From NCBI GenBank assembly GCA_029975215.1, contig JARKPO010000035.1, positions 62,001-126,000 of the forward strand: 64,000 bases of DNA, read 5' to 3'. This document shows, piece after piece, positions 17,224 to 51,261 of this stretch. Numbering within the stretch: the stretch's first letter is position 1; each line of letters begins with the position of its first letter. The translations under genes and the position numbers were made by a program. The stretch comes from Levilinea sp. Its GTDB lineage: Bacteria > Chloroflexota > Anaerolineae > Anaerolineales > Anaerolineaceae. The notes below the pieces were generated by a model. The model had not been told where the DNA came from. It worked only from the letters and a program-made list of their open reading frames with translations, and did no database searches.

Positions 17224-17634
17224 TTAAAACTCCTCATCGTTTTCCACCAAAGCGTCGCTGGCTTCGCCCAGGCCGTACAGCCCCGCCTTGACCACTTTCA
17301 GCGAAAGCAGCGCACATTTCAGGCGCACCGGTCCCAATTCAATCCCCAGCAGGTCCAAAATGTCCTGCTTGGTCATTTTCTTCACGTCTTCCACGTGTTT
17401 CCCCAGGATGGACTCGATCAGCAGGTCAGCTGATGCCTGAGAAATGGCGCAGCCGTGACCGCTGAAAGCCGCCTCGGTGATGATGCCTGCGTCGTCCACA
17501 CGCACATCCACCCGAATCTGGTCGCCGCACAGGGGGTTTTCATCCTCAAAGGTGTAATCATGCGGATCGAGGGTCCCGCGGTAATGAGGATCTTTATAGC
17601 GTTCGATGATGATTTCGCGGTACATGTCGTCCAT
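17224..17634 (-). CDS. sufU: Fe-S assembly scaffold/sulfurtransferase SufU
   Basis: 136-residue IscU-fold protein. The three metal/sulfur cysteines are in PLCGDQ, GHGCAISQASADLL and LKCALL, with the Asp next to the first Cys as in SufU. In SUF systems without SufE it accepts persulfide sulfur from SufS via zinc-ligand exchange. It follows sufS by 17 bp. Confidence 0.93.
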   Translation of the reverse strand: MDDMYREIIIERYKDPHYRGTLDPHDYTFEDENPLCGDQIRVDVRVDDAGIITEAAFSGHGCAISQASADLLIESILGKHVEDVKKMTKQDILDLLGIELGPVRLKCALLSLKVVKAGLYGLGEASDALVENDEEF

Positions 17635-17651: not shown

Positions 17652-18914
17652 CTATGCAAACATGCGCTTGACCTTCTCAACCGCTTCCGCCAGACGGTCT
17701 ACTTCTTCGATGGTGTTGTACAGGTAAAAGCTGGCGCGGGTAGTGGCCGGCAGCTTAAAGCGATCATGCAGCGGCATGGCGCAGTGATGCCCCGCCCGCA
17801 CAGCGATGCCTTCGCGGTCTAATAGTTGCGCCACATCGTGAGGGTGCGCTTCCTGCAGGGTAAAAGCCAGCACAGCCCCTTTCTGTTCCGCTGCCGGGCC
17901 GATCACTGTGACCCCATTGATCTCAGCAAAACGTTCCAGAGCATAGCGAATGATGGTTTTCTCGTGCTCTTCCACCGCCTGCATACCTATAGCTTTGAGG
18001 TAATCCACTGCCGCGCCAAAACCGATCCCCTCCGCAATGGCGGGCGTTCCAGCTTCATATTTGTGCGGCAGGGTATTGGCCGCAAAGGTACGCAGCGTGA
18101 CCTTCTTAATCATGTCCCCGCCGCCCATGAACGGCGGCATGGCGTTCAGCAGGGCTTCTTTGCCGTACAGCACACCGATGCCGGTGGGACCAACCATCTT
18201 GTGCGCCGAAAAAGCCAAAAAGTCCGCGTCCAGGTCGCGCACATCCACCGGCAAATGCGGCACGCTTTGAGCCCCATCCACAAGAGCCAGGGCTCCCGCC
18301 GCATGCGCTGCGGCAATCATCTCTTTGGCCGGGTTAATCGTCCCCAACACGTTGGACATGTGCGTGAAGGCCACCAACTTCGGCCCCTGCTCCAGCAGCT
18401 GCTGGTACACCGTTAAATCTAGCAGGCCGTCATCGGTGACCGGAATGAACTCCAAACGCAGACCGCGCTCCGCTGCCAACATCTGCCACGGAACCAGGTT
18501 GGAATGATGCTCCATCTCGGTTAAAATCACCAGGTCGCCCGCCTGAAGCTGCGTTCGCCCCCAGGTCATCGCCACCAGGTTGATCGCCTCGGTGGTGTTG
18601 CGCACAAAGATCACTTCCCGCGCAGTACGCGCCCCAATAAACTGAGCAATCCGTTGGCGAGCGCCCTCATAGGCCGCTGTGGCTTCCTCCGCCAGGGTAT
18701 GCACCCCGCGGTGGATATTGGCGTTTGAATGCCGGTAATACGCATCCATCGCCGCCAGCACCGACTCTGGTTTTTGGGCGGTTGCGGTGGAATCCAGATA
18801 AATTAAAGGTACGCCGTTGTGAACCTGGCGCTGGAGGGTTGGGAAATCGGAGCGAATGCGCTGCAAATCAAAGGGGGTGGGAGAGTTCACCGAAATCCTC
18901 GACTGTTCACTCAA
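17652..18914 (-). CDS. sufS: Cysteine desulfurase SufS
   Basis: Group II PLP cysteine desulfurase that converts cysteine to alanine and transfers the sulfur to SufU. PLP lysine in FSAHKMVGPTGIGVLYG; active-site cysteine in RAGHHCAMPLH; N-terminal YLDSTATAQKP. 420 residues. A run of about 10 residues precedes the usual N-terminus. Part of the minus-strand suf operon. Confidence 0.95.
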   Translation of the reverse strand: MSEQSRISVNSPTPFDLQRIRSDFPTLQRQVHNGVPLIYLDSTATAQKPESVLAAMDAYYRHSNANIHRGVHTLAEEATAAYEGARQRIAQFIGARTAREVIFVRNTTEAINLVAMTWGRTQLQAGDLVILTEMEHHSNLVPWQMLAAERGLRLEFIPVTDDGLLDLTVYQQLLEQGPKLVAFTHMSNVLGTINPAKEMIAAAHAAGALALVDGAQSVPHLPVDVRDLDADFLAFSAHKMVGPTGIGVLYGKEALLNAMPPFMGGGDMIKKVTLRTFAANTLPHKYEAGTPAIAEGIGFGAAVDYLKAIGMQAVEEHEKTIIRYALERFAEINGVTVIGPAAEQKGAVLAFTLQEAHPHDVAQLLDREGIAVRAGHHCAMPLHDRFKLPATTRASFYLYNTIEEVDRLAEAVEKVKRMFA

Positions 18915-18929
18915 ATGAGGTTAGGACAA

Positions 18930-19220
18930 TTACTCCGCCCGCGGCAAATTGGGCTTAGCCGGTTTGCGGGGCAGGCGAATATTGGTTGAATTTACCGGAT
19001 ACCACAAAATATGATCCGGCACCATCCAACCGTCGGTTAAATACACGTTGCTGCGAAACTGCACAGCCACCATTTTGGCGTCCACCTGCACCACAATGCC
19101 CTTGAGCCACCCGCGAATACGCTGGCCGCCCTTTTCGTGGTCGCAAAACACCTCAACAATATCACCCACATCAAACACATATTCAGAATCAGGGGGGCGC
19201 ATGAAAGGAACCGGTGCCAT
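18930..19220 (-). CDS. Conserved small protein inside the suf operon
   Basis: 96 residues, not recognised. It starts at ATG 19220 behind GGAGAGAATAA and lies between sufD and sufS, 15 bp from sufS. The middle, DVGDIVEVFCDHEKGGQRIRGWLKGIVVQVDAKMVAVQF, reads as short beta strands with a KOW/SH3-like feel, followed by a Trp- and Pro-rich segment. One Cys only, so it is unlikely to bind a cluster alone. The operon position suggests an accessory to Fe-S assembly, but the domain gives no direct support. Confidence 0.7.
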   Translation of the reverse strand: MAPVPFMRPPDSEYVFDVGDIVEVFCDHEKGGQRIRGWLKGIVVQVDAKMVAVQFRSNVYLTDGWMVPDHILWYPVNSTNIRLPRKPAKPNLPRAE

Positions 19221-19308: not shown

Positions 19309-20658
19309 TCAGTCACCCATCGCCTGCATCTTCTTTTGAATGGCAGCCTGGAAACGAGCGCGCACACCTTCAAAAGGAATCCGCTGCATAATCGGGTCAA
19401 AAAAGCCTTCCACAATCAGCCGTTCAGCCATACGCCGGGGGATGCCGCGGCTAAGCAGATAAAACACAGGCTCCTCATCCAACCGGCCCACCGTGGCGCC
19501 GTGCGTGCAGCGCACATCGTCTGCCAAAATTTCCAACCCAGGGATCGAGTCGGCGCGCGCGTTCTCACTCAGCACCAGATTGCGGTTCGCCTGATATCCG
19601 TCAGTCTTGGCCGCTCCCGGAGCCACATAAATCATGCCCTGCCACACAGATCGGCTGTGATCCAACAACGCGCCTTTGAAAAGCAAATCGCTGGTGGTAT
19701 GCGGGGCCAGATGGTTCTGCTGCGTGTCGTGATCCAGGTGCTGGTCGTGGTCGGTAAAATAAAAGCCCGACATCTTGCCCACGCTTCCCGTTCCAGCCAG
19801 TTCCAGGTCGGAGAAATTCTTGGTCAGGTGGCTGCCCACCGCGCCGAACACCCAGTCCAGCGTGCCGTCACGGTCCACCCGCGCACGCTCGTGGCTGAAG
19901 TTATAGATGTTCTCGCCCCAGGATTGCAGCTCCACAAACGTCAGCGACGCGCCCGATCCCACATACAGCTCCACAATACCGGCATGCATGGCCGCCTGCA
20001 GGCTGCCTTCGGGGGAAGCCGCCTCGTGCACATACGTCACCGCCGCGCCTTCTTCCAAATGCACCAGCAGATGCGAGAAATGCGCCAGGCCTTCACCCGC
20101 ACCCCACAGCAGGCTGTGCAGCGGCTGTTCCACCCGCACCCCGCGCGGCACATACAACAGCAGGCCGTTTTGCGCCAGCGCCGCGGCCATCGCCGCAAAT
20201 TTTCCTTCGCCAGGGCGCACAACCTTGCCAATGACTTTTTCCAGCAGTTGCGGGTGCTGCGTCTGAGCCATACGCAAATCGGTGAAGATCACGCCCTGCG
20301 CTGCCACCGCCGGATCCAGGGTCACCTGCGACCCACCCGCCATCAGTAGCACCTGGCCGCCGTGCTGGTTGGCCGTCAGCGGGCGTAAAAGCTCCGCCGG
20401 CACCGGCTCCAGGTCCAAATAGGCGTTTTCCGCGGGGATTCGGTACTGCTGCGGCTGCAAGGTTTTCAAGTCCGTCCGCCGCCAGGCCTCTTCGGAAGGA
20501 GTCGGGATGGGCAGGGATTGGTACGCCGTCCAGGCATTCTGCCGGAAAGCCTTCAAAAAGTCTGGCCCACCAGTCGGAAGGTCTTTTTCAGTAAAAATAA
20601 AATCTTGGGCGGCCGCGGTGCGGCGTACGCCCCGAACAATTTTAGGAGTGTCTGCCAT
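19309..20658 (-). CDS. sufD: Fe-S cluster assembly protein SufD
   Basis: 449-residue right-handed beta-helix subunit of the SufBC2D complex. The family C-terminal signature is present (CTHGATVGRLDEEPVFYLLSRGI..A...LIVEGFF), followed by a helix ending in MQAMGD. SufD supports iron entry into the scaffold. Between sufB and the 96-residue ORF. Confidence 0.95.
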   Translation of the reverse strand: MADTPKIVRGVRRTAAAQDFIFTEKDLPTGGPDFLKAFRQNAWTAYQSLPIPTPSEEAWRRTDLKTLQPQQYRIPAENAYLDLEPVPAELLRPLTANQHGGQVLLMAGGSQVTLDPAVAAQGVIFTDLRMAQTQHPQLLEKVIGKVVRPGEGKFAAMAAALAQNGLLLYVPRGVRVEQPLHSLLWGAGEGLAHFSHLLVHLEEGAAVTYVHEAASPEGSLQAAMHAGIVELYVGSGASLTFVELQSWGENIYNFSHERARVDRDGTLDWVFGAVGSHLTKNFSDLELAGTGSVGKMSGFYFTDHDQHLDHDTQQNHLAPHTTSDLLFKGALLDHSRSVWQGMIYVAPGAAKTDGYQANRNLVLSENARADSIPGLEILADDVRCTHGATVGRLDEEPVFYLLSRGIPRRMAERLIVEGFFDPIMQRIPFEGVRARFQAAIQKKMQAMGD

Positions 20659-20676: not shown

Positions 20677-22092
20677 TCAACCGATGGAGCCTTCCATTTG
20701 GAGCTGGATCAGGCGGTTCATTTCCACGGCATATTCCATGGGCAGTTCCTTCACCAGAGGTTCAATAAAACCAGAAACTACCATCGTGGTCGCTTCTTCT
20801 TCGCTCAGCCCGCGGCTCATCAGGTAAAAGAGCTGTTCCTCGCCCACTTTCGAAACGGAAGCCTCGTGGCCGATGTTAACCCGCTCTTGATCAATCTCAA
20901 TATACGGATAGGTGTCGGAGCGCGACTGGGGGTCCAGCAGCAGCGCGTCACAAACCACGTTTGAGCGCGAGTTGACCGCATCGCGGTGCACTTTCAGCAG
21001 CCCACGGTAAGAAGAACGACCGCCACCGCGGCTGATCGATTTCGAGGTGATTTTGCTGCTCGTGTCGGGGGCCAGATGTACCATCTTGCCACCTGCGTCT
21101 TGCTGCTGCCCTGGCCCAGCAAAGGCCATCGAGAGGATCTCTCCGTGCGCGCCGCGCCCCACCAGGTAACAGGAGGGGTATTTCATCGTCACCTTCGAGC
21201 CCAGGTTAGCGTCCACCCATTCCATCGTGCCTTCTTCGTGGACGATGGCGCGCTGAGTCACCAGGTTGTACACATTGTTTGACCAGTTTTGAATGGTCGA
21301 GTAGCGCACGCGTGCGCCCTTCTTCACCACAATTTCGATTACGCCGCTGTGGAATGAATCAGTGGTGTACTGCGGGGCCGTGCAGCCTTCCACATAGTGC
21401 AGCTGCGCGCCCTCATCCGCAATAATCAAGGTGCGCTCAAACTGCCCAATATTGGCCACGTTCAGGCGGAAATAGGCCTGCAGCGGCAAGTCCACCTTCA
21501 CACCCTTGGGCACATACACAAACGACCCACCCGACCATACCGCGCTGTTTAACGCCGCGAACTTGTTATCCTCAATCGGGATGATCGTGCCAAAATGCTC
21601 GCGGAACAGGTCAGGGTATTGACGCAAGCCGTCTTCAATGCTCACAAAAATCACACCGGCTTTTTCCAGGTGTTCCTGCACGCGGTGATACACCATCTCC
21701 GATTCGTACTGCGCCCCCAGTCCAGCCAAAAAGTGCTGCTCGGCTTCGGGGATCCCCAGGCGGTCAAAGGTCCGCTTGATATCATCCGGCACATCGTCCC
21801 AGGAACGGCCTTCTTTGTCCGAAGGTTTCACATAATAGATCAAGTCGTCCAGGTTCAGGTTAGACAAATCCGGCCCCCAGGTGGGAATGGGCCGCGCCTG
21901 AAAATGAGCCAAGGCTTTCAGACGGAAATCCAACATCCACTGCGGCTCGCCCTTCATGGCCGAAATCTGCGCCACAACTTCCGCGCTCAGGCCTCTGCCG
22001 GTGTTAAACACCGAGGTGTCCGGGTTGCTAAACCCGTATTTATACTCACCCAGCTTTTCTAAATATTCGGCTTGCGGGTTTGAACTCATCAT
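20677..22092 (-). CDS. sufB: Fe-S cluster assembly protein SufB
   Basis: 471-residue scaffold subunit of SufBC2D. Typical segments include [41 protein letters not shown] (with the cluster/sulfur cysteine) and [26 protein letters not shown] lies just upstream; start could be the ATG at 22092 or the one at 22089. 18 bp from sufD. Confidence 0.96.
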
Positions 22093-22125: not shown

Positions 22126-22905
22126 TTAGCCGTTAACCGCTTCGCCTTCGTACTTTTCGCGCACCCAATCGTAGCCGTGTTCTTCCAGGCTCAGGGCCAG
22201 CTCTGGGCCGCCCGATTCCACAATGCGCCCGCCCAACATGACGTGCACAAAATCCGGCTGAATGTAATTCAGGATACGCTGGTAATGGGTGATCACCATC
22301 ACACCCAGATCTTTTCCGCGCAGCGTGTTCACACCTTCTGAGACAATCCGCAGCGCGTCAATATCCAACCCCGAGTCGGTCTCATCCAACACTGCGATTT
22401 CGGGCTTCAAGGTCGCCATCTGCAAGATTTCCGCGCGTTTCTTCTCACCGCCCGAAAAACCGTCATTTAAGTAGCGTCCGGCAAAGGCGTGATCCATGCG
22501 CAGCATGTCCATCTTTTCTTTGAGCATCTTGCGGAATTCGGGAATGGGCATGCCCTTATCTTCCGGGTTGACCGCCTTGCGGCGCGCGTTCAGCGCCGTG
22601 CGCAGAAAGTTCGCCAGAGTCACCCCCGGGATCGCCACCGGATACTGGAATGCCAGGAAAAGCCCCAACCGCGAGCGCTCGTCCGTTTCCATTTCCAAAA
22701 TATTCTCGCCGTTAAACAAAATCTCGCCGTCCGTCACCTCATAGGCCGGGTGGCCCATGATCGTGTACGAAAGCGTAGATTTTCCCGTGCCGTTGGGTCC
22801 CATGATGGCATGCACCTCGCCGGTCTTTACGGTTAAATCCAATCCCTTGAGGATTTCCTTCCCCTCGATGCTGACGTGTAAATTTCGAATCTCCAAAACG
22901 GACAT
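22126..22905 (-). CDS. sufC: Fe-S cluster assembly ATPase SufC
   Basis: ABC-type ATPase (259 residues) of the SufBC2D complex. Walker [10 protein letters not shown], signature [12 protein letters not shown] and Walker [16 protein letters not shown] are intact, with the SufC-typical DETDSGLD. First gene of the suf operon; a strong promoter lies about 70-100 bp upstream. Confidence 0.96.
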
Positions 22906-22979: not shown

Positions 22980-23037
22980 ATTATATCATAGTAAAGGTAA
23001 TTCGGTCAATATTTATTATAATATTCTTATATATTCG
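22980..23037 (-). promoter_or_regulatory. suf operon promoter with putative SufR box
   Basis: Minus strand: TTGACC (23009-23004), 18-bp spacer, extended -10 TGA-TATAAT (TATAAT at 22985-22980). A 33-bp block at 23037-23005 (CGAATAT...ATATTGAC) ends in the -35 and matches the block at 27264-27296 in front of sufR at 23 of 33 positions by my alignment. Inverted half-sites CGAATAT and ATATTG bound it. Inference: SufR operator. Confidence 0.7.
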
Positions 23038-23052
23038 AATATCTTAAAGAAC

Positions 23053-23097: not shown

Positions 23098-26000
23098 TTA
23101 AGCCTGTCGTTCCAGCCAGGCCAGGGCCTGCTCCGCAGCGGCATGTCCCAGTTTTGCCGCCCGCAGGAAACAGCGCTGCGCTGTGGCCCGATCCCCCTGG
23201 CGAGCAGCCGCCCACCCCAGCCACAGCCACGCATCCGCATTGTCCGGCTGCAGTTCCAGCACTTTGCGTAAAATCGCATATCCCTGGCGGATATTGCCGC
23301 TCTTCACCTGCTGAATGCCCTGCGCCAGAAAATCAACCCCTTCCACGGATTCCCGCGGCACCACCTGCGGCGGACGGGCAGCCATGCGGTCTTCTGCCTT
23401 GGGCGTTGCCGACGGAGTCGCTTCCGGAACCTGCTCTGGGGCTGGGGGAGCAACGGTCTGCGGCTGGCGTTCTTCTATCCGTTCTGGCTGACTTTCAGGG
23501 GTTGCGGCAGCCTCCAGGCGGGCTTCCGTCTGGCGTTCCCGACGGCGGATCCCCCGCCGGATCAGCGCCCACAGCACCAGCACCAACAACAGCAGCACCA
23601 GTCCTGCCAGAGCCAGCCATAAAACCGGCGTATTCATGTTCAAATCCAATTGAATATTGGGCAGCTTTGGCAGCACGATTCCAGGTGCAGATGTCGGGGT
23701 CGGTTCGCTCGCCGCACCAGCAGGGGTATCCCCCACTTGGGCTGCCGCCGCCTTGCGTACATCCACGCGCACGCTCACCCCGCGGTAGGTTCCCGCCGAG
23801 TCAGACACCGTCAGGGAGATGTCATGTACCCCTTCGCTTAGGTGCGCAAATACCTGCGGCCCGCTGCCCAGCACCCCATCCAGATTGGAATTCCATTCCA
23901 TCCTTTCGCCGGTGATAGCCCCATCTTCCAGGTCGTAGGCGTATCCTCGCAGCCAGACCCCTTGTGTCGATGCGCTGCCTCCGTCCAGCGGTGATAGAAT
24001 GACCGCTGTTGGGGCGTGATCTGCCACCGTCACCGCCCCCGCCGATTGAGTCGAAACGCTGTGAAAACCGTCACTGGCGTCCACCCGCAGCCAAAGCGGC
24101 TTTCCCCCCGGCAGCCGTGTTGGGTCCACCGCCAGTTCACTTGCCCGGATCCCCACCGCCATGGGGTTCCACGTTTGCCCTTGATCCTGGCTATACGAAA
24201 CCGCATAGGTCAACGCGTCCCCATCCGCGTCAGAAGCCTGCCAGCGCACCCAGGCGGTCTGCCCATCCGCCCACGTTTCGCCGCCCGCGGGTTCCTGCAG
24301 CCTGAGAACAGGCGGATTGGCCGAAGCGGTCTGTCGGGCCAGCTCGGTTTCTCCTCGCACCACCACCAAAGAGGCCGCCTGCTCGCTGTCTGCAGTAAAA
24401 CTGGCCGTGATGAAATCCACCCCAATATTCTGCCCCAGGGTGGGATGCAGATAATCCAGTTCCTGACACATCTGCTCCAGCACGTTTTCTTCTGCGTCGC
24501 GCACCTGCAAGCATGTCCCCGTTTCGCCTCCCACCAGCGGCGGCATCCGCGATGCAATGCGGAAAGCGGGCAGAATCTCTGCCTTCCCGGTTTGCCGAAT
24601 TAACGCAGCCGTCAGCAGCTGCCCTTCTGCGGGTGCACGCCGGTTCCGCGGGATTCCTGCGGCCAACCGTCCGCCCACAGGCAGATCTCCATCCGAAAGG
24701 AACGCATCCTGATTGGCAAAACCTGTTCCAAAAGCCTGTGCCGTCGCCGGGGAAACCCAGGCAGGCGTGCAGTACGACAGCACGTCATAAGTAACGACCG
24801 GGTCAAACAGCTCAAAGCCCGATGCGCTCACCCGCGCCCCCCAACTACCCAGGGTGCCCGTGCCGCCCGCCTCACCCCACCAACACGCCAGTCGCTTATT
24901 AACAGCCGCCGGGCGCAGCCCATTTGCGTTCAGCAAATGGCCCATCTCGCGCGTCAGCGTCTGACCGGACTCCATCGTTTTCAAATTAAACGTACAGGTA
25001 GAAGCACCCACCGCCACCCGGCCGATGGACGGCAAGTCGTCACCGTGCGACCAGCCTGTATCCGCCAGGCTGCACTGCCCATCGTTCTGGGTATCGGGAT
25101 GTGTCCACGCAAACAGTCGGTCGGGCGCAGTTCCGCCCGCCCAGCGTCCCTCGCGCGCCGTGCGTTCATACAACAAACGCAGAGTCACCAGATAATCCGT
25201 CACCGCCGGACAGTCGCTGCCGTCGGTTAAGGCCGGGCAGTCCAGAGTGCTTTCAAAAGTTTGCAGGATCCCCGGCTGATACACATAGGTCAACCCATCC
25301 GGAGCCAGCGGCAGCATATCCCACAAATCACGCACAGCCTGCTGCGCCGCGCTGCGGTCCGGCAAGAGCGTTTCTTTCGCTGGTTCTGGCGTGCCAGCCC
25401 CAGCCGCCGGGCGGTATCCCAGATCAAACCAGGCCAGCCGCAGACGGATCCCCGGCGCAAAAGTCAGGTTCGTTTCGCGCTGCGTGCCTCCCACCTCAGC
25501 CGTCAGCCGCAGTGTGCCGCTCAGCCACTCCGCGGGCAGCAGGAAGTTCAGGCTGCGCTGCGGGTCGCTTTGCTGCCGCGTCCAATCCTCATGGAAAGCC
25601 GTGATGCTGACCGGTTCCGGCGTCAGCATCCCCAAGTCACGTCCTTCTCCGCTCACCCCGCGCAGCGTCCCGGTGACCCCCGCCAGCTCGGTGCAGCCCT
25701 CGCCGCAGTCCACATACACGCGCACCACAGTCGGCTTGCCCGCCGTTAGCTGCCCTTCCCCATCCACAGCTTGAATCGCCTGAATATGTGAGATGAACAG
25801 CCCATCCGCCTGGACGGCTTCAAAGGCCACCTCGCCGGTCCCTTCGCTCAGATTCACAAGCTGCTCAGACGGTTGAAACTGATATCCGCTCAATACAGGC
25901 CGCAGTGCATAACTGCCCGCGCTTAAATGCTGGAAGCTGAAACGTCCGTCCGCGCCGGTTAAAACCGGCTCAGAATCTGCCAGGTGCACGCTCACCCCCG

Positions 26001-27162
26001 CCAAAGGCTGTCCGTCCTCCGTCCGCACCACTCCTTCCAGGGTCAGGCTCGGCTCCAGCCCGCCGCCCGCCGCGGCACTGGGGCTAAAGGCCGCCCCCTC
26101 CACTGAGGTGATCCACTGCATCTGTGAGCCGTCCGTTCGTACCGATGCCAGATTCAGCCCTGTGCTGCCAGTCTGTGGGTCTGGACTCTGAGTGAAGACA
26201 ATCCGGTCCCCTTCCGCCGTCCAGCAATAATCCGCAAACGGCAAGCCCGACACCAACAGCAGCAGTCCGCTGCCGTCCGGCCGCACCAGATAAATCTCAG
26301 CCTGGGCGTCGGGCTGCGGGGTAAACAAAGCTCGCCGACCCAAAGCCGGATCCGAAACAAACGCAATCCAACTTCCATCTGGAGACCATTGCGGTGAATG
26401 ATCCCCTTCATGCGCACTCAGCACGAAGTCTGCACTGCCATCCACATCTGTCAAATGAATTCCGCTTTGTCCCCCGCCTGAAACCGCATAGGCAATGCGT
26501 TTACCGTCCGGCGACCAGGAAGGTGAAAACTGCGCCGCCCCTGGTTGGGAAATCAGCGCACGGCGTTCACCGCTTTGTGTTTGGATCAGTACCACCTGGC
26601 TTTCCGGGTATGGGGTTTCGGAAGGGCCAAACGGGGCGCAAGTCACCGCCAGCTGACCGCCCAAAGGCGACCAAACCGGCTCCCAGCAGGCCTCATTTTC
26701 CGCGCTGACGGCCTGCGGGCTGCCGCTCCCATCCGCCGCGGTGGTGTACACGCGCAGTTTGCCGCCCATAGGGGGCGACGCCGTAAATGCCAGATGCTGG
26801 CCGTCCGGCGACCAGGCTAAATCGCGAACTGTTAACGTATCCGGACTTAACCGCAGCCGATTTTGCCCCCCGGCGTCCATCACCGCCAGCGCAGAGACCT
26901 CCCCTTGCCCCTCCAGAAAGGCAAGGCGTTTACCATCCGGCGAGAAACGCGGCAGATCTTCGCGAGCCGGGGTATCCGTCAAGGCTACTGCCGTACCCCC
27001 GTCTGAGCGCGCCCAGTAGAGATCTGTGCCTCCGGCGTTTTCCGCCGCATAAACCACCCAACTCACAGCTTCCGTCTGCGTCTGAGCACGGGCCGCTCCC
27101 TGCAACCACAGCCCCCCCAGCGCCGCGGCGGCTGCCAGTAATAGTCGTCCTATCGAATTCAA
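23098..27162 (-). CDS. Large exported TolB-like/carboxypeptidase-regulatory/metallopeptidase-like protein with TM and TPR tail
   Basis: 1354 residues, start TTG at 27162 behind AGGCAGGCAG. Layout: signal peptide (1-~26, ending ARAQ); TolB/PD40 beta-propeller repeats (~35-350; recurrent SPDGKRLAF, SPDGQHLAF, SPDGSWIAF); a carboxypeptidase-regulatory-like beta-sandwich (~373-450, LEGVVRTEDGQPLAGVSV); a long unrecognised region containing TREMGHLLN at 737-745, a HExxH-like motif whose first His is Arg738; Ig/fibronectin-like segments (~950-1150); one TM helix (~1178-1200, LWLALAGLVLLLLVLVLWALI); a basic and Gln/Pro-rich cytoplasmic linker; and a C-terminal TPR/Sel1-like unit (~1270-1354, LQPDNADAWLWLGWAAARQGD). 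It is therefore anchored with the big part outside and the TPRs in the cytoplasm. Function unknown; sensor, receptor or inactive peptidase are possible. It lies between the suf operon and sufR. Confidence 0.85.
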   Translation of the reverse strand: MNSIGRLLLAAAAALGGLWLQGAARAQTQTEAVSWVVYAAENAGGTDLYWARSDGGTAVALTDTPAREDLPRFSPDGKRLAFLEGQGEVSALAVMDAGGQNRLRLSPDTLTVRDLAWSPDGQHLAFTASPPMGGKLRVYTTAADGSGSPQAVSAENEACWEPVWSPLGGQLAVTCAPFGPSETPYPESQVVLIQTQSGERRALISQPGAAQFSPSWSPDGKRIAYAVSGGGQSGIHLTDVDGSADFVLSAHEGDHSPQWSPDGSWIAFVSDPALGRRALFTPQPDAQAEIYLVRPDGSGLLLLVSGLPFADYCWTAEGDRIVFTQSPDPQTGSTGLNLASVRTDGSQMQWITSVEGAAFSPSAAAGGGLEPSLTLEGVVRTEDGQPLAGVSVHLADSEPVLTGADGRFSFQHLSAGSYALRPVLSGYQFQPSEQLVNLSEGTGEVAFEAVQADGLFISHIQAIQAVDGEGQLTAGKPTVVRVYVDCGEGCTELAGVTGTLRGVSGEGRDLGMLTPEPVSITAFHEDWTRQQSDPQRSLNFLLPAEWLSGTLRLTAEVGGTQRETNLTFAPGIRLRLAWFDLGYRPAAGAGTPEPAKETLLPDRSAAQQAVRDLWDMLPLAPDGLTYVYQPGILQTFESTLDCPALTDGSDCPAVTDYLVTLRLLYERTAREGRWAGGTAPDRLFAWTHPDTQNDGQCSLADTGWSHGDDLPSIGRVAVGASTCTFNLKTMESGQTLTREMGHLLNANGLRPAAVNKRLACWWGEAGGTGTLGSWGARVSASGFELFDPVVTYDVLSYCTPAWVSPATAQAFGTGFANQDAFLSDGDLPVGGRLAAGIPRNRRAPAEGQLLTAALIRQTGKAEILPAFRIASRMPPLVGGETGTCLQVRDAEENVLEQMCQELDYLHPTLGQNIGVDFITASFTADSEQAASLVVVRGETELARQTASANPPVLRLQEPAGGETWADGQTAWVRWQASDADGDALTYAVSYSQDQGQTWNPMAVGIRASELAVDPTRLPGGKPLWLRVDASDGFHSVSTQSAGAVTVADHAPTAVILSPLDGGSASTQGVWLRGYAYDLEDGAITGERMEWNSNLDGVLGSGPQVFAHLSEGVHDISLTVSDSAGTYRGVSVRVDVRKAAAAQVGDTPAGAASEPTPTSAPGIVLPKLPNIQLDLNMNTPVLWLALAGLVLLLLVLVLWALIRRGIRRRERQTEARLEAAATPESQPERIEERQPQTVAPPAPEQVPEATPSATPKAEDRMAARPPQVVPRESVEGVDFLAQGIQQVKSGNIRQGYAILRKVLELQPDNADAWLWLGWAAARQGDRATAQRCFLRAAKLGHAAAEQALAWLERQA

Positions 27163-27211: not shown

Positions 27212-27263
27212 CCGTCACTCGTCTAAATTGATTCCTTGCAGCAGGCTCCATCCTACCGTTCAA

Positions 27264-27321
27264 CGAATATTTAGGATATAAATCTTATATATTGACATTA
27301 TTGAAACGCCTGTGATATACT
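27264..27321 (+). promoter_or_regulatory. sufR-sufT promoter with putative SufR box
   Basis: TTGACA (27292-27297), 18-bp spacer, extended -10 TGA-TATACT (27316-27321). The 33-bp block 27264-27296 is the counterpart of 23037-23005 in front of sufC, with the same length, the same ends and the same offset to the -35. This suggests autoregulation by SufR. The leader to the ATG (about 80 nt) contains short hairpins such as CTTCGC/GCGAAG. Confidence 0.7.
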
Positions 27322-27409: not shown

Positions 27410-28045
27410 ATGAAAAGCACACGAGATCGAATCTTACACACCCTGCTCAACCATCCCCGCTGCAGCATCAACGAACTGGCCGATGCGGTGGGCATTAATG
27501 GTATTTCCGTGCGCCACCACCTCAGCAATTTACAAGGCGATGGGCTGATTGCCGTCGAAGAAGAGCGCCACGGTGTGGGCCGCCCTCGCCTGGTGTATTC
27601 CCTCACCGAAAAAGGCATGGAGCGCTTCCCCACCCGTTACCTGCGCCTTACCAACCGCCTGTTGGATCAGCTCAAAGAAACCCTCCCTTCCGAGGTGGTC
27701 GACCGCCTGTTCGTGCAGATGGCCACCGATTTAGGCTCCGATATTGCCCAAAAAGTGCAGACTCTTTCCATCGAAGAAAAACTGGAAGTGATTAAAGATG
27801 TGCTGTCTCAGGAAGGTTTCTCCGTAGAGTGGGAAAAACAAGGGGACCAATACCTGATCCATGAAATCAGCTGCCCCTACTATCAAGTCGGCCAGCAGCA
27901 CCCCGAAGTTTGTTCCCTGGATCAAACTCTCATCTCCACCGTCCTGGCCATCCCCACCGCCAAAATCCAATGCCTGCTGCGCGGTGACCAGCACTGCACC
28001 TATGTCGTCTCAGATCTTGCTCCTTCGGAGGATCAACTCGCATGA
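27410..28045 (+). CDS. sufR: Fe-S-sensing transcriptional regulator SufR
   Basis: 211-residue DeoR/ArsR-like winged-helix protein. The N-terminal HTH (residues ~5-65) has ELADAVGINGISVRHHLSNLQGDGLI and the wing GRPRLVYSLTEKG. The C-terminal domain carries the SufR cysteine set, CPYYQVGQQHPEVC then CLLRGDQHC, which binds a [4Fe-4S] or [2Fe-2S] cluster in known SufR proteins. The repressor presumably shuts off suf when clusters are plentiful. Start at 27410 lacks a good Shine-Dalgarno. It overlaps sufT by 4 bp (ATGA). Confidence 0.9.
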   Translation: MKSTRDRILHTLLNHPRCSINELADAVGINGISVRHHLSNLQGDGLIAVEEERHGVGRPRLVYSLTEKGMERFPTRYLRLTNRLLDQLKETLPSEVVDRLFVQMATDLGSDIAQKVQTLSIEEKLEVIKDVLSQEGFSVEWEKQGDQYLIHEISCPYYQVGQQHPEVCSLDQTLISTVLAIPTAKIQCLLRGDQHCTYVVSDLAPSEDQLA

Positions 28046-51179: not shown

Positions 51180-51219
51180 TTCACACCCCGCTGTGAGTCC
51201 TGCGGGGTGTGAATTTTTA
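51180..51219 (+). terminator. Terminator after the HAD-DinB gene
   Basis: TTCACACCCCGC (51180-51191) / GCGGGGTGTGAA (51202-51213), then TTTTT. Confidence 0.92.
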
Positions 51220-51261
51220 TAAGAGATTTCTTAGATTTTCACAGATTCATGAGACAAACTA

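Follow-up and report, generated by a model that had tools for sequence, protein, structure and literature searches.

The suf locus and its presumed regulator

The window, that is, the whole 64-kb stretch of DNA analysed here, carries a suf operon for iron-sulfur cluster assembly on the minus strand, which runs in the order sufC-sufB-sufD-orf96-sufS-sufU-Rieske from 22905 downward, and a sufR-sufT pair on the plus strand from 27410. The genes that matter for the following are these:

17224..17634, minus strand, sufU
17652..18914, minus strand, sufS
19309..20658, minus strand, sufD
20677..22092, minus strand, sufB
22126..22905, minus strand, sufC, the first gene of the suf operon
23098..27162, minus strand, gene for a 1354-aa beta-propeller (PD40/TolB-like) protein, now between both operator copies described below
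27410..28045, plus strand, sufR, winged-helix regulator with C155-X12-C168-X27-C196
28042..28398, plus strand, sufT-like gene with an FeS_assembly_P domain, overlapping the end of sufR

The 96-aa ORF between sufD and sufS (18930-19220, minus strand) has no Pfam or NCBIfam match.

SufR of the window is 96% identical to that of Levilinea saccharolytica KIBI-1, the nearest named relative. Its N-terminal part is a winged helix-turn-helix (Pfam HTH_24, 3.7e-8; HTH_5, 4.2e-6), and the spacing C-X12-C-X27-C of C155, C168, and C196, which is kept in 52 of 53 orthologues, equals that of Mycobacterium tuberculosis Rv1460, a protein that needs its three cysteines C203/C216/C244 (PMC6034842). The protein stays under the cut-off of the NCBIfam model TIGR02702 (SufR_cyano), with 88.5 vs 178.8 bits. 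Across the 61 genomes compared, SufR and SufC are each matched in 58, and SufR is linked to the suf genes in most, either as a divergent neighbour or on the same contig.

In its layout, the locus is like sll0088 sufR and sufBCDS of Synechocystis, where the regulator is divergent from the suf operon and the sites lie between them (PMC6034842, PMC8593673, PMC13421787). Autoregulation and C-terminal cysteines for an Fe-S cluster, both features of cyanobacterial SufR, are predicted here as well (PMC6034842, PMC8593673, PMC13421787). The actinobacterial proteins (Streptomyces avermitilis, Corynebacterium glutamicum, and Rv1460) are winged-helix suf repressors with the same C-X12-C-X27-C (PMC6034842), but in them sufR heads the operon, unlike in the window. 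In a literature search that had most subscription journals outside its reach, no paper on SufR regulation in Chloroflexota was found.

Two copies of a 34-bp element and their promoters

The sufC and sufR promoters of the window each overlap a copy of an AT-rich element, the putative operator:

22980..23009, minus strand, sufC promoter: TTGACC, 18-bp spacer, TGA-TATAAT
23005..23038, minus strand, sufC copy of the 34-bp putative operator, on the plus strand GTCAATATTTATTATAATATTCTTATATATTCGA, with the right (sufR-side) -35 end decayed
27263..27296, plus strand, sufR copy of the 34-bp putative operator, ACGAATATTTAGGATATAAATCTTATATATTGAC, with the left (sufC-side) -35 end decayed
27292..27321, plus strand, sufR promoter: TTGACA, 18-bp spacer, TGA-TATACT

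The first-pass annotation had described a 33-bp element at 27264-27296 (plus) and 23037-23005 (minus) with 23 of 33 matching positions; coordinates, strands, and count are exact, and 20,000 pairs shuffled at constant composition never gave as many as 23 matches (mean 11.6, sd 2.5). The resemblance thus stands, while the length does not, as the natural element has 34 bp. It was also right that both copies end in TTGAC inside the -35 box, followed after an 18-bp spacer by an extended -10, TGA-TATACT for sufR and TGA-TATAAT for sufC. On the chromosome of this Levilinea-like genome the two copies are placed in parallel; they nevertheless match when read in opposite directions because the element is a near-palindrome.

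A search of the 4.3-Mb genome with an operator model, built from sequence only out of 20 elements that all come from genera other than that of the window, ranked the two copies as the top two places (E 2e-4 each), the next-best place genome-wide having E 1.1. No further promoter in the genome was found by the model to carry the operator core.

Within the 64-kb window, the sole other place with 22-23 matches to the element is 51209-51243, an AT-rich near-palindrome (GTGAATTTTTATAAGAGATTTCTTAGATTTTCAC) that adjoins a terminator-like repeat before ftsH. It was rejected as an operator: it is the T-tract side of that inverted repeat, is without TTGAC, and is absent from the results of the model search.

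A shared two-way element in relatives

Most relatives in the order have sufC and sufR side by side in divergent orientation, with one common 34-bp near-palindrome, GTCAATATTTAnnATAAnnATCTnATATATTGAC, both ends of which are the -35 boxes of the two divergent promoters. The exact form GTCAAT-N22-ATTGAC stands between divergent sufC and sufR in 21 of 53 genomes. Downstream of these boxes, TATACT follows at 16-18 bp in 26 of the 31 scored sufR promoters, and TATAAT on the sufC side in 25 of 33 scored sufC promoters. Inside the boxes, the element consists of inner half-sites AATA...TATT and a core ATA...ATCT; its symmetry peaks at the centre of the 34-mer, and the inner 22 columns have a mean pairwise identity of 68%, compared with 44% for shuffled sequence and 31-33% for promoter spacers. 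The inverted half-sites CGAATAT / ATATTG proposed earlier need correcting: CGAATAT is a decayed -35 end ('CG') joined to an AATA half-site, and the true half-site is AATA(T)/(A)TATT with the inner core.

Conservation upstream of sufC and sufR in sister taxa, the check that had been proposed, was observed: among the 51 genomes of the order that have a close SufR and could be tested, 46 have the element at the suf locus. All three testable genomes without a close SufR are also without the element (Fisher p 0.002, uncorrected for kinship). G014 counts against the link to SufR, having a SufR-like protein but a sufC without the element. More widely in the class of the window, the element is present in G263. 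In the 61 genomes, the hits of the operator model below E 0.005 are all at suf loci. The weak hits outside the suf loci (E 0.02 to 1) come to about the number expected by chance over 61 genomes; a wider regulon is not claimed, and the suggested extension to nif or other Fe-S genes is unsupported.

The element differs from the operators known for SufR. The cyanobacterial operator is CAAC-N6-GTTG (PMC8593673, PMC13421787), present as two sites of unequal affinity, whereas here a single AT-rich palindrome of 34 bp carries a -35 box in both ends, or two copies of that palindrome are present; C. glutamicum has GAAC-N6-GTTG (PMC11995493), and CAAC-N6-GTTG over the -10 of S. avermitilis is reported second-hand in PMC11995493. 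As the first-pass annotation had stated, the operator proposed here is not of the CAAC-N6-GTTG type, a motif that is no commoner than in shuffled sequence: in 53 genomes, the 250 bp preceding sufR contain 0 exact occurrences, and the distribution of best matches there equals that of shuffled sequence.

Split genomes and complementary decay

In 15 genomes, that of the window included, sufC and sufR are separated, and a copy of the element stands at each of the two promoters. The sufC copies keep the left GTC in 14 of 15 and the right GAC in 0 of 15, and the sufR copies keep the left GTC in 0 of 15 and the right GAC in 15 of 15; the far -35 end has thus gone from every copy, in a manner complementary between the two. 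AATA or TATT at the promoter-side end is kept in all 15 of each kind of copy, and ATT is kept at the far end in 13 of 15 sufC copies.

It might be asked whether there is an operator at all, or merely a likeness between sigma-70 promoters that are both AT-rich and both combine TTGAC with an extended -10. The ancestral element does, after all, have a -35 box for either end, and an AT-rich stretch preceding such a box can serve as an UP element. This explanation is very improbable, given that the core is conserved well above what composition would give, is kept in register on the promoterless side, and is found at no other promoter in the genome.

If the element is an operator, its second copy could have come from duplication or been gained anew by the second promoter under selection for SufR control. 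The latter is rather unlikely, although the separation of the two genes seems to have been repeated: the split label has to change 12 times on the SufR tree, with well-supported branches forcing at least 4 of these changes, and the number of separations is uncertain because the label is no more clustered on the tree than shuffled labels. A new site could arise in either orientation, whereas the parallel orientation fits better than the inverted one in 14 of 15 pairs (p 7e-4), and the two copies of G044 are identical over 28 of 28 core columns, the unusual core included. The pairs of G060 and G057 reach 26/28 and 25/28. The window's own pair, with 23/28, is not above the best likeness between genomes (23), and over all split genomes the comparison of within- and between-genome likeness gives only p 0.07, so that the best evidence for duplication comes from orientation and from genomes other than this one. 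From the parallel copies and the identity in G044, duplication with complementary decay would therefore explain the copies, and the shared element was presumably duplicated as other genes came between sufC and sufR.

Between the two copies in G044 and G057 (L077, L075), there is a frame that, by eye, resembles a LysE-like membrane protein.

Predicted control by SufR

Taken together, the sequence comparisons suggest with considerable likelihood that the element is a SufR operator, copied by duplication of a shared two-way switch. This agrees with the earlier proposal of a SufR operator common to the suf operon and sufR-sufT, which is supported here with binding by SufR presumed. As the site is tied to SufR by inference, and suf operons elsewhere among bacteria answer to different regulators (PMC8593673), it could instead be the operator of another regulator, of the Fur or Rrf2 type, controlling suf and sufR. 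That seems improbable, in that the element lies in this genome only at the suf promoters and at the promoter of sufR itself, its presence tracks SufR across genomes, and a related element precedes sufR in another class, where sufR heads the suf operon.

Such sufR-sufC-sufD-sufS-sufU-sufB operons occur in other classes of the phylum (G191, G175, G284, and G223). Before sufR, G175, G284, and G223 have AATA-N20-TATTGAC, whose end holds the -35 box and whose geometry is that of the element in the window; G191 has GATA instead of AATA. The elements of these classes serve one promoter only and differ in the core (AAAAAG...CTTTTT in G110), and their SufR proteins are 31-36% identical.

For SufR as the regulator, it is logical to propose that a dimer bearing an iron-sulfur cluster occupies the palindrome and masks the -35 box or boxes; judging from the position of the element and from the cyanobacterial case, these would be sterically blocked by holo-SufR. 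Bound SufR would repress the suf operon and sufR-sufT together, and under iron or oxidative stress the cluster would be lost or damaged and the promoters freed.

The SufR proteins of Chloroflexota probably use a separate class of operator, a long and AT-rich palindrome into whose ends the two -35 boxes are built, and this two-way switch would have undergone duplication and complementary decay more than once. If true, this would be a case of duplication-degeneration-complementation in a bacterial regulatory site, with many related genomes in which a shared two-way promoter is divided into two one-way promoters, each of which retains a repressor site. The operator, unlike the published SufR operators, would also predict suf regulation in Chloroflexota.

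Finally, a SufR-like paralogue with cysteines of the CPYW-X-C type is encoded at L172 7180-7880, minus strand (G000:C73). The gene that follows it has a start resembling, by eye, a ribonucleotide reductase ATP-cone, and an AT-rich repeat lies at the promoter.
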